From: Nitrospira sp.
GTDB taxonomy: Bacteria; Nitrospirota; Nitrospiria; Nitrospirales; Nitrospiraceae
Reading direction: 5' to 3'
DNA length: 64,000 nucleotides
NCBI GenBank assembly: GCA_030123625.1
Contig: CP126121.1
Coordinates: 3,822,179-3,886,178, forward strand
Shown: positions 15,575 through 22,230 of the stretch, piece after piece
How the letters are laid out: the number at the start of each line of letters is the position of its first letter
How positions within the stretch are numbered: the first letter of the stretch is position 1
Position numbers and translations under genes: made by a program
Notes under the pieces: model-generated
Seen by the model: only the letters and a program-made list of their open reading frames with translations
Told to the model about the DNA's origin: nothing
The model's database searches: none

Positions 15575-16912
15575 CTACTGGAGGTGGTATTTGGCCATGC
15601 GATAGCGCAGCGTGTTCCTGGTCATTTTAAGGAGTCGACTGGCTTCCGAGACATTGCCGGAAGATTTTCGCAACGCTTCTTCAAGCATCTGCTTTTCCAT
15701 GTCCTGAAACGACAGTCCAAAAGCCAGCAACGACGGCTTGGAACTCTGACTCAGACAATCGATCGGGGGAGCGGTTTTTACGGATGCCGGTAAATGAACA
15801 GGCTGAATAATCTCCGCTTTGCATGTGATGGTCAGCCATTCGACGACATTGTGGAGCTCGCGTACATTTCCAGGCCAATCGTGGTGTTGAAGGACAGCAA
15901 GAGCTGCCGGAGCGATGGCCCGAATGCGACACCCGCGTTCCTGTTTGGCCCGCTCCAAAAAAATCAAGAGAATCGGCTCGATATCTTCAAGCCGTTCCCG
16001 CAAAGGTGGAATGCGGAGTTGGTAGACATTCAATCGATAGTACAGATCCAGGCGGAAACGGCCGGCCTTGATGTGGGCAAGCAAATCCTCATTTGTGGCG
16101 GCAATGATGCGGATGTTGACTTTACGGCTGCGGGTATCTCCCAAAGGATCGATGGTGTGATTTTCCAACACGCGCAGGAGTTTGGCTTGGGCGGTAGGGC
16201 TCATTTCACCGATCTCGTCGAGAAAGATCGTGCCTCCCTCGGCCATTTGGAATCGGCCCGGCTTCGATCGCTTGGCGTCGGTGAAGGCACCGGATTCATA
16301 ACCGAACAATTCAGCCTCCAACAGATTTTCGGGAATCCCCGCGCAATTGAGTGTGATCAGCGGGCCGCCCGCTCGTCGGCTGCATCGGTGAATGGCCTCC
16401 GCAAACAATTCCTTTCCCGTTCCGCTTTCACCGGTGATGAGGACGGTGGCGTCCGTTGCGGCCACTTCTTTGGCCAGTTGTTTCATCAGATTCATTTGCG
16501 ATGAGACGCTGATGATAGGGGCAAATGGATCGTGCAGGGAGGCTGAATGAACCGACCGAGACCGACGGAGAGCTTGTGCGATAGCGACCTGAAGATCTTC
16601 AAGAAGAACCGGTTTGGTCAAGTAATCCACGGCACCGGCGCGCATGATCTCGACGGCGTCTTTGACGGAATGGCGTTCTCCGATGGCAAGCAAAGGGAAG
16701 GATCCTGACGTGTGAGAGGCATATTCCAGCAGGGGAGCCAACGTGTGGGGATTTCCTTCGCCGATGATCAGATCGGGGGAAATCTCCGGGCAGAGTGAGA
16801 GTCCTTCTGAAACCCTGTCTGTTGAGTGAATCTGTGTGTGAGGAGCGGCAGCTTCGACAAGCTGCCGGAGTCCGGAATCCTTGGAAATAAGGAGAAGCGT
16901 CTGAAGGTTCAT
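15575..16912 (-). CDS. Sigma-54 activator with degenerate receiver domain
   Basis: A 445-residue NtrC-like protein. The AAA+ domain is intact: Walker [15 protein letters not shown] in the sigma-54 contact loop, Walker B IFLDEIGEM; a Fis-type helix-turn-helix closes the protein (EASRLLKMTRNTLRYRM). The receiver-like N-terminus keeps the fold and K100 (YLTKPVL) but the acidic pair is SKD and the phosphoacceptor position reads LIIGEGNP with no Asp. It is therefore unlikely to be controlled by phosphorylation and may respond to a ligand or partner. No kinase gene is adjacent, which fits. Confidence 0.88.
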   Translation of the reverse strand: MNLQTLLLISKDSGLRQLVEAAAPHTQIHSTDRVSEGLSLCPEISPDLIIGEGNPHTLAPLLEYASHTSGSFPLLAIGERHSVKDAVEIMRAGAVDYLTKPVLLEDLQVAIAQALRRSRSVHSASLHDPFAPIISVSSQMNLMKQLAKEVAATDATVLITGESGTGKELFAEAIHRCSRRAGGPLITLNCAGIPENLLEAELFGYESGAFTDAKRSKPGRFQMAEGGTIFLDEIGEMSPTAQAKLLRVLENHTIDPLGDTRSRKVNIRIIAATNEDLLAHIKAGRFRLDLYYRLNVYQLRIPPLRERLEDIEPILLIFLERAKQERGCRIRAIAPAALAVLQHHDWPGNVRELHNVVEWLTITCKAEIIQPVHLPASVKTAPPIDCLSQSSKPSLLAFGLSFQDMEKQMLEEALRKSSGNVSEASRLLKMTRNTLRYRMAKYHLQ

Positions 16913-17213
16913 CGGAGCGCTCCTTATAGATAGCCTCCAGCCGAACCAGCAAAAACCGTCACTACCCTACACCTCTTTGCATGAGGAAAGGAAGGGGGAA
17001 GCGGGAGAGGCTTTAATTGAGGCTAACAGAAGAACCTATGGCAATGAGATTCTTCTCATGGAAGGCACTCACCGAACAAGCTACGGAAGTATTTGAAAAG
17101 GACGCTAAAAACAATGGGACGGCGTGAGCAATGATGTGATCCGCAGCGAGCTGTCAATCGAGAGTATCGACTGACAACCCGCCGTGAATGAGAGGATACT
17201 GAATATTTATCAA
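16913..17213. other. Intergenic region with two small hairpins
   Basis: No gene is visible in these 301 bases. TGTCAATCGA (17152-17161) pairs with TCGACTGACA (17167-17176) around a 5-base loop, one mismatch, 38 bases past the stop of the minus-strand cytochrome; it is probably its 3' end structure, though without a U-tract. A second short palindrome, ATGAGA-TTCT-TCTCAT, lies near 17045-17060. The end near 16912 should carry the activator's promoter; none is clear. Confidence 0.4.
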
Positions 17214-17672
17214 CTATTCGGTGTCCTTACAGAATGTTCGCTCGTAGGCGATGGTCATCCAGGCTTCTTCCTCGGTGATGACGCCTCCCTTTATCAGGGC
17301 CGGCATACCGGTGCCGGGACTCCCGTTCTTGATGATCCAGTGCAGTTCTCCGTCGTTCCGCTTCTTGTGGAACTTGCAGTTCGTGAAGTTTCGAGGGCCG
17401 GGCGACAACAGCATTCCACCGGCCCCGTCGCCTTGTCCAGTCATGCCATGGCAGTTGACGCAGGTCCCCTTGCCTTCATAAATTTCCTTGCCTTTGGCGA
17501 TTATGTCGGGTGTCACGGTCAACGGATTCTTCATTTTTCGTGCATCACCACGTTCAGCATCCGGGACACGCGGCTTCAATGGATCAGATTCTGGAGCGGC
17601 CCACCCCGCCGTACTGTACAGGGCAACGGCGACCAAGCTGCACGCTATCATGGCTAAACGCTTCCCTCTCAT
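17214..17672 (-). CDS. Periplasmic monohaem cytochrome c
   Basis: A 152-residue class I cytochrome c with a signal peptide (cut near AGWAA). The single haem site is CVNCH (71-75) and the likely axial Met is in GTGMPAL (M123). AGGAGG precedes the ATG. It carries electrons in the periplasm. It is the third gene of the nirK-globin-cytochrome group and could feed electrons to NirK or take part in NO handling; this is inferred from position. It shares its C-terminal pattern (T/SEEE-W-MAYE) with the cytochrome at 43453-43914, so the two are probably paralogues. Confidence 0.9.
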   Translation of the reverse strand: MRGKRLAMIACSLVAVALYSTAGWAAPESDPLKPRVPDAERGDARKMKNPLTVTPDIIAKGKEIYEGKGTCVNCHGMTGQGDGAGGMLLSPGPRNFTNCKFHKKRNDGELHWIIKNGSPGTGMPALIKGGVITEEEAWMTIAYERTFCKDTE

Positions 17673-17856
17673 GATTCCTCCTTGGTGATGAACACTGTGT
17701 TACGGCCAGATGGCTACTTGCGCCGCGCGTTCGGGGGCGCAAATAACGAAAGATATGATAACACGATATCGTTCTCAGTGGATTGCTCATGTCTCGTGGA
17801 AAGTGACGAGATCGAAGTAAAGTCGGAGGCTGGCTTCGAGCATTTACACGAAGATG

Positions 17857-17891
17857 TTGCGGGCCGAGACTTCTTGAAGTCCGGCCCGCAA
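17857..17891. repeat. Strong hairpin, 9 + 6 bp stem
   Basis: TTGCGGGCC (17857-17865) pairs with GGCCCGCAA (17883-17891). Inside, after a small bulge, GACTTC (17868-17873) pairs with GAAGTC (17876-17881) around two bases. It lies between globin and cytochrome c. With the palindrome next to it, it probably separates the two transcripts or stabilises the globin mRNA; no U-tract is present on either strand. Confidence 0.6.
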
Positions 17892-17898
17892 GAGATCT

Positions 17899-17930
17899 GC
17901 GAGACGTGCAGTGATCACTGCACGTCTCGC
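17899..17930. repeat. Perfect 32-bp palindrome
   Basis: Bases 17899-17914 (GCGAGACGTGCAGTGA) are the exact reverse complement of 17915-17930, with no loop. It begins 11 bases past the globin stop (minus strand) and eight bases from the previous hairpin. A perfect symmetric element this long may be a protein-binding operator or extrude as a cruciform; as RNA it forms a very stable stem. Its place inside the nitrite/NO cluster is notable. Confidence 0.65.
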
Positions 17931-17940
17931 ACTGACGTCA

Positions 17941-18384
17941 TCAGGGAACTTCGACAATATCTTTTTTCATCGGTCCGAGGATGCCGAGCAGTTCGTCCTT
18001 TTCTTGCTTCCCGACGTTGAAGGTATCCAGCGCACTGACCAGGTCCTCCACAAGGGCGTTGAAATCAGCAGTGGTAATCTTCATGCCTTTGTGCGTCGTC
18101 TTCATATCCCGACCTGTGTAGGTGCAAGGCCCGCCGCTTGCTTGGCACACTTGATCAACCAAGTGCTTATTGAGCTGCTTGAGGTCGGTTTTCGAGAAAC
18201 GGGCATTGATGCGCTTGTCTGCTCCCACATTGTTGACGAACTTGGTGACGACGGCTTGGATGGCTCCTACCCCGCCCAGCCGCTCATAGAGCGACCGCTC
18301 AGCGGCAAAGGATGTGGCGCTGCTCAATGTCCAGGTGGCTGCCACGGCAATGGCAACTGTCGCTATCTGCTTAGAGAGCCTCAT
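17941..18384 (-). CDS. Exported group I truncated haemoglobin
   Basis: A 147-residue protein with an N-terminal signal peptide (cut near ATSFA/AE) followed by a truncated-globin fold. Visible family features are LYERLGGVGAIQAVV at the start, ARFSKTD, and the probable proximal haem His in THKGMKI (H98). Two cysteines (80 and 87) in QVCQASGGPCTYTG could form a disulfide in the periplasm. Truncated haemoglobins bind O2 and NO and can oxidise NO to nitrate. Its place 64 bp after nirK suggests it deals with NO made by NirK outside the cytoplasm; that is inference. Confidence 0.85.
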   Translation of the reverse strand: MRLSKQIATVAIAVAATWTLSSATSFAAERSLYERLGGVGAIQAVVTKFVNNVGADKRINARFSKTDLKQLNKHLVDQVCQASGGPCTYTGRDMKTTHKGMKITTADFNALVEDLVSALDTFNVGKQEKDELLGILGPMKKDIVEVP

Positions 18385-18448
18385 ATCGTCTGCTCCTTTT
18401 GTAAGAATAAAAAAACTATATGACGTCCATACGTATTTCGCTTCGTGA

Positions 18449-19396
18449 TTAAGGATTCCAGGGGGTCAGTGGCATCAAGCTGTCATACTTCTTTGGGTTT
18501 TGGTTGGCGACCACCACGGCAATAGCACCGCGCAAGGCTCCCGTTAAGGAATGGGTCACGATAGGATAGGCTCCTGGTTCATCAACGATCATATCGAATG
18601 TGGCTGCGCTGCCCGGACCGACTACATAGGTCTGGACTCCGGTAAATTTGTTGGCCGGATTGCCGCTTTCGTAGACGTTGTCCCAGATCTCGGCGATTGT
18701 ATGGAGAGAGGAGAACTCATTCGGGCCGGCATTCACAAAGTAAATTCGCACCCGCTCGCCGACCTTGACTTCCAACGGCTCCGATCCAGGGAAGAAGGGA
18801 TGGTACTTGAAGACGCCGCCGTTGAAGACCGTATGGTCAAATTTGCGATCGAACATCGCCTGCACGTTGTCCGGGTTCTTCCACAGCTCAGACTGCACGA
18901 GGACAAATTCCCGATCGGCCTTCGGCCAAGCATGCGCATCCTTCGGATCAACGATGATCGCGCCGAACATACCGCGGCCAATGTGCTGGATCATGGGCGG
19001 TGCGCCGCAGTGATAGAAGAACACGCCCGGCTTCTTGGCCACGAAGGTATACTTGATCGTCTCACCCGGCCTGATTTCGCGGTAGTTCTTCAAGAAGTCG
19101 ATCTCTGCCGCGTGAAAATCCATCGAATGGCCCTGGGCGTTTGTCGGAGGATTGATGAGCGTGAAGTTGACCGTATCGCCTTCCATCACTCGCACGACCG
19201 GGCCTGGCATTTGACCGTTAAAGGTCCAGGCCTTGTACTTCGTACCGGTACCATCAATGACGATCTCCGTTTCGGTCGCCGTGAAGGTGACATCATGGAC
19301 CTTTGCTCCTGCGGACCCGGGCATTGTGATACACCCACTGGCTCCTAAGAGGACGGCAAGTCCCAAGGTGGATGTGAGCATACGAAACCTCTGCAT
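18449..19396 (-). CDS. nirK: Copper-containing nitrite reductase (NO-forming)
   Basis: NirK reduces nitrite to nitric oxide in the periplasm. This 315-residue product has a lipoprotein-type signal (LLGASGC, Cys 22) and two cupredoxin domains. By family pattern, type 1 copper ligands are H90, C130, H138 and M143; type 2 ligands are H95, H129 and H282; the catalytic pair is D93 and H232 (MDFHAAE and SLHTIAE). All are present, so it should be active. AGGGAGG precedes the ATG. It is first of a minus-strand group with a secreted globin and cytochrome c. No clear FNR or NnrR box was seen upstream. Confidence 0.93.
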   Translation of the reverse strand: MQRFRMLTSTLGLAVLLGASGCITMPGSAGAKVHDVTFTATETEIVIDGTGTKYKAWTFNGQMPGPVVRVMEGDTVNFTLINPPTNAQGHSMDFHAAEIDFLKNYREIRPGETIKYTFVAKKPGVFFYHCGAPPMIQHIGRGMFGAIIVDPKDAHAWPKADREFVLVQSELWKNPDNVQAMFDRKFDHTVFNGGVFKYHPFFPGSEPLEVKVGERVRIYFVNAGPNEFSSLHTIAEIWDNVYESGNPANKFTGVQTYVVGPGSAATFDMIVDEPGAYPIVTHSLTGALRGAIAVVVANQNPKKYDSLMPLTPWNP

Positions 19397-19623
19397 AGTA
19401 GCCTCCCTTTAGATTTTTATGGAAAAGAGACGCTGCACTGATGAGCGCGGCTGATTAGGTCGCCCCTCACTCGTCGAGCAGACGCCGGGTCAACTATCTA
19501 CCAAATTCTGAGGAACAAATACAAAGAAAATTTTTTGTCACGTATTCACATGGAGTGAGGAGAAAGGAGATGATCAGTCATTGCGGTGGATCAACTGTAT
19601 CGAAAGATGAAGGCCTCAATGGA

Positions 19624-20640
19624 TTACGAAGACTTAAGGTTGCGTTGCGCGATGGCCACGTTCCGGAGAAAACCCTGGTGTTTGGCACGTCGAATCGGGC
19701 TTTGTTGAAATACAGCCGTGAAGGTCGATTCGTCCAGATTGGAAAGCTCTCGCAAGTTAGGGGAGAGGGTCAACGAGGAAGATTGAAAAGCACGTTCCTG
19801 AGTCGGTTCGGCTCGTAAATTGAACGGGCACACGTCGAGACAATCGTCGCAGCCGAAGATTTTGTTTCCTATGTCGGCTTGTAACTCGTGAGGGATGACG
19901 GCGTCATCGCCGCGCAACTCGATGGTGAGATAGGAAATACAACGTGTGGCGTCGACGACATAGGGTTCGATGATGGCTCTCGTGGGACAAGCCTGAATGC
20001 AAAGCGTGCAGCTGCCGCAGAGATCAGTCGCCGGTTCATCTGGTTCCAGATCCAATGTGGTCAGCACTTCTCCCAACAGCAGCCAAGAACCATAGTCCGC
20101 TGAAACAAGGTTGGAATGCTTCCCAATCCAGCCCAAGCCCGCCTGTTCGGCCCAGGCTTTCTCCATGATGGGGCCGGTGTCGCAGTAGGAACGGGTTTTC
20201 GATTCGGGTGCCATCTCGTGAATGACCTGCTCCAGTTGCTTGAGCCTGGCATCAAAAAGCTTGTGATAGTCCCTTCCCCAAGCATATCGTGCAATACGGC
20301 CGTAGCCCGGCTGTTCGTCGGCGCGTTGTTCGGTGAGGTAGTTGATTCCCAGTGAAATGATTGATCGGCAACCGGCAAGCACCCGGCCGGGATCGGCGCG
20401 CTTGTTCGGCGCCCGTTCCATCCAGGCCATGGTGCCGTGATAGCCTCGCCGGAGCCATTCGGTGAGACGGTCGAAAAGATGTCGAGGCGCCGTGGTCTCG
20501 GAATGGGAAAAAGGACCGTTTCCTTGGTTGCCGGCAGCTGACCCTGTCTGTCCACCGGATACGTGCGTAATGCCGACCGCATCGAACCCCAGCGCGCGGG
20601 CTTCTTGTTTGATTGCTGCCGTAATAGACATGGAATGCAA
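19624..20640 (-). CDS. queG: Epoxyqueuosine reductase QueG
   Basis: QueG performs the last step of queuosine synthesis in tRNA, reducing epoxyqueuosine using cobalamin and two 4Fe-4S clusters. The 338-residue product has both ferredoxin-like motifs (CGSCTLCIQACPTRAI and CDDCLDVCPFN) and the family opening (IKQEARALGFDAVGI). Length is close to normal. Two ATGs nine bases apart could start it; neither has a strong ribosome-binding site. The 227 bp between nirK and this stop contain no gene and must include the nirK promoter. Confidence 0.95.
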   Translation of the reverse strand: MHSMSITAAIKQEARALGFDAVGITHVSGGQTGSAAGNQGNGPFSHSETTAPRHLFDRLTEWLRRGYHGTMAWMERAPNKRADPGRVLAGCRSIISLGINYLTEQRADEQPGYGRIARYAWGRDYHKLFDARLKQLEQVIHEMAPESKTRSYCDTGPIMEKAWAEQAGLGWIGKHSNLVSADYGSWLLLGEVLTTLDLEPDEPATDLCGSCTLCIQACPTRAIIEPYVVDATRCISYLTIELRGDDAVIPHELQADIGNKIFGCDDCLDVCPFNLRAEPTQERAFQSSSLTLSPNLRELSNLDESTFTAVFQQSPIRRAKHQGFLRNVAIAQRNLKSS

Positions 20641-21117: not shown

Positions 21118-22230
21118 ATGCTCGCGACCAGGATTACGCAAAAAGAAGGCGCATTCTATTTCATCGCGTACAAGGCCGGTGAACTGTTGGACAAGGTTCG
21201 GTTCACCAGCCGGTATTACTTCGAGGGTGAAGAGATCGCCCAAGCCAAGATTTCAGAGCATGACGACGTAGCACAGTTTATTGCGGGAATCGAGCGGAGC
21301 GAGAAGGGCTTTCAACGGGTCTTGAATCGGCAGAAGATCAAGCAGATCGTCAATTTTTATGAAACGGTGGTGGCTCAACCGATGATTCCCGGAACCGTGC
21401 TGCTGTTTACCGACGAAACACTTCGTTTCCAAAAGATGGACGGCTCGGATTCAATCGGTCACCTCAGCGAGCCGAAGGGAAAGTATCTGGTGATCGACGG
21501 GCAACATCGACTCGCCGGGCTCCACTTTTTCCATGACAAACATCCGGATCAAAGTGCGCAGGTCGAGGTGCCATGCCTGTTGTTTGACGGCAGAAGTGCT
21601 GACTTTGCGACGGAGATGTTCGTGATCATCAACTCCACCCACACGCGGATCAACCGGTCGCATTTGGTCGATCTCTACGAAAAAGTCTCATGGGAAAGTC
21701 CTGAAAAGAAATTTGCCGCCAAGGTCGTGAACCTCCTCTATGGCGAGCAGGACTCTCCGCTGCAGTACAAGATCAATCGCCTTGGGGGGCGGAGCAAACA
21801 GGAAAAATGGATTCTGCAGTCCGAGGTGTTCAACGAGTTGCTGAAAGTCGTGACGGTCCACAAACGCTGGATGGAGTCCCACTTGGGGATGAAGGCCGAG
21901 CGCTGCTATGCACTGGTGCGCGACTATCTGAAAGGAGTCAAGGACGTCATGGGCGAAATTTGGGGGCAGAACGACCGGTATATGTTTACGCGCGATGTGA
22001 CACTCAAGGCGTTGATTCGTGTCCTGGACGACTTGATCGTGGATCGCAAGCTCATCAATGATTGGAACGAGCAGCGCTCGTCTCAACCGTTCGCTGAGGT
22101 CGTCAAGCCCTGGGCTACCCTGACCAAGGAGTTCCGTGCCGACGGCTTTTACGAACGTTTCCCTGCTAAAGGACAACTTGAACGGGTACGGAAGATCCAT
22201 CAGCGGCTGCTGGATGCGATTGTCGGATAA
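21118..22230 (+). CDS. DGQHR-domain protein (DndB-like)
   Basis: A 370-residue protein with the signature VIDGQHRLAGL (DGQHR at 127-131), preceded by a helical segment (NRQKIKQIVNFYET) and followed by a conserved Asn/Arg region (INSTHTRINRSHLVDLY). These are the hallmarks of the DGQHR family that includes DndB of DNA phosphorothioation and the ParB/sulfiredoxin-like DpdB. No dnd, dpd or other modification genes lie in the window, so this is an orphan. An AT-rich leader with GGAGG precedes the ATG. The downstream gene overlaps its stop by 17 bases, implying coupled translation. Confidence 0.75.
   Translation: MLATRITQKEGAFYFIAYKAGELLDKVRFTSRYYFEGEEIAQAKISEHDDVAQFIAGIERSEKGFQRVLNRQKIKQIVNFYETVVAQPMIPGTVLLFTDETLRFQKMDGSDSIGHLSEPKGKYLVIDGQHRLAGLHFFHDKHPDQSAQVEVPCLLFDGRSADFATEMFVIINSTHTRINRSHLVDLYEKVSWESPEKKFAAKVVNLLYGEQDSPLQYKINRLGGRSKQEKWILQSEVFNELLKVVTVHKRWMESHLGMKAERCYALVRDYLKGVKDVMGEIWGQNDRYMFTRDVTLKALIRVLDDLIVDRKLINDWNEQRSSQPFAEVVKPWATLTKEFRADGFYERFPAKGQLERVRKIHQRLLDAIVG

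Follow-up and report, generated by a model that had tools for sequence, protein, structure and literature searches.

The nirK-globin-cytochrome locus

The window, i.e. the whole stretch of 64,000 nucleotides analyzed here, carries on its minus strand three genes that span positions 17214-19396 in the order nirK, globin gene, cytochrome gene. Inspection of the open reading frames and profile searches agree with an earlier note on this DNA, which had described these three same-strand genes as encoding a nitrite reductase (NirK), an exported globin and a monohaem cytochrome. The features of the locus are as follows.

19624..20640, minus strand: queG, ancestral neighbour outside the cassette (profile match; empty-site comparison)
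19483..19523, minus strand: conserved block upstream of nirK, probable promoter/operator (conserved columns in an alignment of 49 loci)
18449..19396, minus strand: nirK, class III copper nitrite reductase, predicted lipoprotein (LLGASGC) (Cu_nitrite_red, 202 bits; match to 4kns)
17941..18384, minus strand: exported group I truncated globin, predicted to be soluble and periplasmic (Bac_globin; AlphaFold model; fold match to 1idr)
17898..17931, minus strand: hairpin 1, just 3' of the globin gene (perfect inverted repeat)
17857..17891, minus strand: hairpin 2, 3' of the globin gene, probable transcript end (strong hairpin in 52 of 52 clade A loci)
17755..17770, minus strand: promoter-like conserved block GATATCGTGTTATCAT upstream of the cytochrome gene (conserved columns in an alignment of 52 loci)
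17214..17672, minus strand: monohaem cytochrome c (CVNCH), paralogue of a core Nitrospira cytochrome (Cytochrome_CBB3)
17006..19623, minus strand: inserted three-gene cassette, limits approximate (missing between queG and the sigma-54 regulator in five genomes)
16913..17005, minus strand: ancestral queG-regulator intergenic sequence retained beside the cassette (local alignments to empty sites exceed 100 shuffles)
15575..16912, minus strand: NtrC-like sigma-54 regulator, ancestral neighbour outside the cassette (profile match; empty-site comparison)

The host genome (G000), a single contig of 4.69 Mb, also contains two copies of amoA as well as amoB and hao. The host is therefore a comammox Nitrospira and not a plain nitrite oxidiser, and the locus has to be seen in the context of ammonia oxidation and not only of nitrite oxidation. 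Beside queG lies a DGQHR/DndB-like gene (21118-22230) whose identity among most clade A loci is 88-98%; its neighbours queG and thiE are far less conserved.

NirK is a class III copper nitrite reductase

In profile searches NirK matched Cu-oxidase_3/Cu_nitrite_red, and its closest solved relative is 4kns (E 2.6e-104), the class III NirK of Nitrosomonas europaea. The ligands of the T1 copper (His, Cys, His, Met) and of the T2 copper (His, His, His), and the equivalents of the catalytic residues Asp98 and His255, are kept in all 84 aligned sequences. The score of 202 bits does not reach the curated cut-off of TIGR02376 (296.3 bits), which is a matter of one model's score threshold and says nothing of functional features. 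A lipobox-like motif is present in 48 of the 50 clade A copies and in none of the clade B or canonical ones; here and below, signal and lipobox calls are pattern-based, made without a dedicated predictor.

The comammox enzyme thus shares its copper and catalytic residues with the Nitrosomonas europaea enzyme, as well as a setting of NO chemistry in an ammonia oxidiser. In the ncgABC-nirK operon of Nitrosomonas, however, the partners of NirK are a multicopper oxidase and two cytochromes and no globin, whereas the NirK described here has a globin partner and is a predicted lipoprotein. For clade A2 and a part of the clade B genomes, two nirK genes beside HAO have been described (PMC9714041); these, too, encode a copper nitrite reductase (CuNIR) that is associated with comammox and has moved between clades, but they are of another NirK type (32-34% identical), lie near HAO and have no described globin. 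We observed such an arrangement in a clade B genome (L264, G042:C18, 4231-6059), where two more CuNIR genes near HAO are 32-34% identical to the clade B nirK.

The globin has an apolar distal pocket

The globin matches Bac_globin with 64.6 bits (cut-off 21), and its N-terminus, MRLSKQIATVAIAVAATWTLSSATSFAA|ERS, reads as a Sec signal, so that export is predicted from the pattern. The AlphaFold model (pLDDT 81) has the M. tuberculosis globin HbN (1idr) as its best fold match, with a TM of 0.88, and displays the 2-on-2 fold and proximal His F8 of group I truncated globins. Alignment with the 1idr sequence shows that Leu E7 is kept (Leu71) and that His F8 corresponds to His98, but Tyr B10 and Gln E11 are missing, their places being taken by Val50 and Leu75. 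Among 105 globin relatives, B10 is Val or Ile except for one Ala, and E11 is Leu except for one Val and one Ile; the distal pocket is apolar in all 105, His98 is invariant, Cys80 is kept in all but one and Cys87 in all but two. The comammox globin hence has in common with HbN the fold, the proximal His and Leu E7, and differs from it in being exported, in its Val/Ile B10 and Leu E11, in its conserved Cys pair and in adjoining nirK. The exported globins of canonical Nitrospira belong to the same family (roughly 56-73% identical) and have an apolar pocket too; they differ in lying apart from nirK, in falling outside the comammox tree group and in their start, which is lipobox-like in 21 of 43 canonical globins and in none of the 62 nirK-linked ones. 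The genome of the window also encodes a second truncated globin (L001, G000:C1:699648-699971), which is missed by similarity to the nirK-linked one.

Loss of Tyr B10 and Gln E11 weakens O2 binding in truncated globins, and NO binding by these proteins needs no such distal hydrogen bond. The apolar pocket therefore favours binding and buffering of NO in the periplasm over NO dioxygenation or O2 supply. HbN is an established NO dioxygenase, and its fold, together with the linkage of the globin to an NO-producing enzyme and the presence of a cytochrome that could re-reduce the globin haem, would fit a reaction in which oxygenated globin turns NO made by NirK or HAO into nitrate, thereby detoxifying it in the periplasm, as the earlier note had envisaged. 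We regard this as unlikely, because the O2-stabilising residues of HbN are replaced in practically all copies, because the globin has no reductase domain (the profile search showed that its 147 aa comprise a globin domain only and lack the FAD/NAD reductase domain of flavohaemoglobins), and because making nitrate would waste one electron of ammonia oxidation.

The cytochrome and the predicted transcripts

The cytochrome c contains one CVNCH motif and matches Cytochrome_CBB3; it also gives a partial match to cytochrome 579, whose score of 131.5 bits against a cut-off of 280 bits (NF033864) marks it as related to that family without being a member. A core paralogue that is present family-wide lies at G000:C1:364734 and is about 62% identical. 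The cassette cytochrome is linked to nirK and the globin gene in clade A loci and is missing from the clade B pair.

In clade A loci the nirK-globin spacer measures 49-76 bp and the globin-cytochrome spacer 251-303 bp. All 52 distinct clade A loci, in 48 different sequences, have a strong hairpin 3' of the globin gene that scores at least 31, where mononucleotide shuffles reach 29 at most; no T run of the kind expected for an intrinsic terminator is found at this hairpin. Because this conserved hairpin lies between the globin and cytochrome genes, and because the latter has its own conserved upstream block, we predict that nirK and the globin gene are co-transcribed as one message and that the cytochrome gene is probably on a separate one. 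An FNR-type box as the driver of nirK was rejected, as the conserved upstream block contains none and the nearest, imperfect site is at 19581-19594. The window as a whole (1-64000) holds 56 FNR-like sites (TTGAT-N4-ATCAA, up to two mismatches), with 34 expected from shuffles. In one comammox MAG (G161, locus L101, 3404-6551) an apparently frameshifted nirK is followed by tandem copies of the globin and cytochrome genes.

Linkage of nirK and the globin gene follows ammonia oxidation

Of the 147 family genomes surveyed, 134 have a homologue of the globin and 140 have NirK. The earlier note had called exported truncated globins unusual, but exported globins of this family are thus the rule in the Nitrospiraceae. 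When the coordinates of the globin and NirK matches were combined, the two genes proved to be adjacent in 49 of the 147 genomes, 41 of the window's genus (g1, clade A) and eight of genus g9 (clade B). Genes for ammonia oxidation (amoA, amoB or hao) are present in 47 of these 49 genomes versus seven of the 98 others, counts that are not independent owing to shared ancestry among species and in which several genomes are incomplete. Of the 49, 39 have amoA; amoB adds another six and hao a further two, leaving only G105 and the 71%-complete G109 without any of the three. The order and spacing of the three genes recur in about 50 clade A species.

Canonical Nitrospira have both genes, unlinked, so that the chemistry of the globin is not exclusive to ammonia oxidation. 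The idea that the trio is a feature of nitrite oxidisers is thus not supported, since it is the adjacency that is tied to ammonia oxidation. Globins away from nirK, which the earlier note would have counted against a joint unit, do occur in these relatives, yet they belong to a different globin clade and about half of them have a lipobox. Conversely, seven amoA-bearing genomes (G087, G037, G054, G063, G082, G103 and G117) are without an intact adjacent pair, and in G087 even the best CuNIR match does not surpass E 3e-9; the unit is therefore not essential for comammox. G087 (L265, L275), which is comammox by its amo and hao genes, encodes a globin of the lipoprotein type and has no recognisable CuNIR.

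Insertion of the cassette and joint loss of the pair

Because synteny in clade A extends to queG, the DGQHR gene and thiE, we did not take it by itself to prove a function; the argument for a unit rests on clade B, on empty sites and on losses.

Firstly, queG is directly followed by the NtrC-like sigma-54 regulator in five genomes, namely the canonical congeners G147, G056, G005 and G073 and the comammox G087. At these empty sites the two genes are 53-141 bp apart; the sequence between them aligns better than shuffled controls to the final 35-110 bp ahead of the regulator in the window, L269 being the weakest case, and has no match to the region upstream of nirK. Because only the regulator-side part is matched, the insertion covers approximately 17006-19623 and comprises exactly three genes. 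The sigma-54 regulator was excluded as a member of the unit, as it adjoins queG without the cassette in these five genomes.

Secondly, the clade B loci (L119-L122) contain nirK and the globin gene only, followed by a small ORF and a transketolase gene, and in L120 and L121 amoA/amoB lie upstream of the pair; the surroundings of the pair thus differ between the clades. Three amo-bearing genomes of genus g1 (G159, G150 and G170) have nirK beside a globin gene of the clade B type, and in G159 the further context is tkt-nirK-globin, the pair adjoining a transketolase gene. Based on these genomes and the clade B loci, we take the nirK-globin pair to be the older unit and the cytochrome to be a clade A addition. 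The small ORF 3' of the globin gene in clade B (L120, 6936-7553) and in G159 (L270, 8293-8625) has a signal-like stretch and no Pfam match.

Thirdly, nirK and the globin gene appear to be lost jointly. Three clade B genomes have a broken nirK together with a broken or missing globin gene. A single deletion in G054 fuses nirK codons 1-239 to globin codons 108-148; nirK stumps with no globin gene nearby are found in G037 (nirK 1-125) and in G117 (nirK 1-67), which still has an adjoining amoA; and G063 lacks the pair and has another CuNIR near the transketolase gene. We read these cases as joint losses, with assembly error possible for single genomes. The recurrence of the linkage and the co-loss rule out that nirK and the globin gene are linked by chance.

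The earlier note's three-gene unit therefore survives in part: the nirK-globin pair and the clade A cassette are borne out, but the cytochrome gene is missing in clade B and, in clade A, lies behind the hairpin with an upstream block of its own.

The pair has a history different from that of its hosts

In the NirK tree the copies of clade A and clade B are split from all canonical copies (support 100/97). The nirK-linked copies also group in the globin tree (99/99). This group includes one comammox globin that has no nirK beside it, L110, and support is weak (31/86) for a split that holds A+B but not L110. In the RpoB tree of the hosts, clade A falls next to its canonical congeners (99/99) and clade B within g9, and RpoB rejects clades A and B as one clade (p-AU 6.8e-6). 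Conversely, a grouping of clade A with these congeners is rejected by NirK (p 0.015) and by the globin (p 0.0048). These trees are most simply read as reflecting a transfer of the pair from one comammox lineage to another.

A transfer of hao together with nirK between the comammox clades has been proposed (PMC9714041). That proposal, and the clade B pair adjoining amoA/amoB, would also fit a passive history in which nirK and the globin gene travelled with the ammonia-oxidation genes by proximity, without a joint function. We hold this to be improbable, because the clade A pair is far from amo and hao, yet has kept its spacing and is accompanied by a cytochrome gene, and because the clade B pair was lost together while amo remained.

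Discussion

Our preferred reading, whose chances we judge to be evenly balanced, is that the locus is a comammox-associated operon of nirK and the globin gene, to which clade A has added a dedicated cytochrome c, and in which the globin would be the periplasmic NO-binding partner of NirK. NO handling by the nirK-globin unit is likely. As for the compact NO-handling system of three genes that the earlier note had suggested, nirK and the globin gene are co-inherited and co-lost and the clade A cassette was inserted as one, but the cytochrome gene is not part of the clade B pair.

Capture of O2 by the globin at low oxygen, for ammonia monooxygenase or a terminal oxidase, has been proposed for a comammox 'glbN' in a metaproteome study, in which three comammox MAGs (285-287) overproduced haemoglobin, up to 4.4-fold, and cytochrome c-like proteins under oxygen limitation, read there as oxygen supply (PMC7986553). 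The cassette is present in locus L100, labelled new MAG-286 and probably from that work; we nevertheless find this role very doubtful for the nirK-linked globin, as its apolar distal pocket predicts a weak O2 affinity, its gene is linked to nirK rather than to oxidases, and the haemoglobin measured in PMC7986553 may be a different protein.

The linkage is well shown; the mechanism proposed for the NO-binding role is inferred, as are NO as the ligand of the globin, the direction of the NirK reaction and the partner of the cytochrome. Hydroxylamine dehydrogenase would free NO in the periplasm during ammonia oxidation; the globin would bind and buffer this NO, shielding haem-copper oxidases and keeping NO available to NirK; NirK would interconvert NO and nitrite; and the clade A cytochrome may swap electrons with either NirK or the haem of the globin. 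Bacterial ammonia oxidation is considered to have NO as an obligate intermediate, comammox genomes lack NO reductase and nitrosocyanin, and the enzyme that oxidises NO is unknown (PMC6478695, PMC8115096). N. inopinata makes and consumes NO, and NirK is its second most abundant protein (PMC6478695); the role of NirK in comammox has been termed unclear (PMC8115096). It is conceivable, if quite unlikely, that the globin and NirK, with or without the cytochrome, form the missing NO-oxidising module, in which either ferric globin or a NirK working in reverse and fed with NO by the globin would convert NO into nitrite and pass the fourth electron to the cytochrome.

A literature search, in which many subscription papers were beyond reach, found no paper on a nirK-linked globin in comammox; the protein families are known, and the combination of nirK with the globin gene and its history appear to be undescribed. 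The globin has its linkage, ancestry, horizontal history and loss in common with NirK, which provides named candidate genes for NO handling in comammox Nitrospira. This bears on the observation that net NO from N. inopinata is about tenfold lower than that from some ammonia-oxidising bacteria and, likewise, on the emission of N2O from nitrification.
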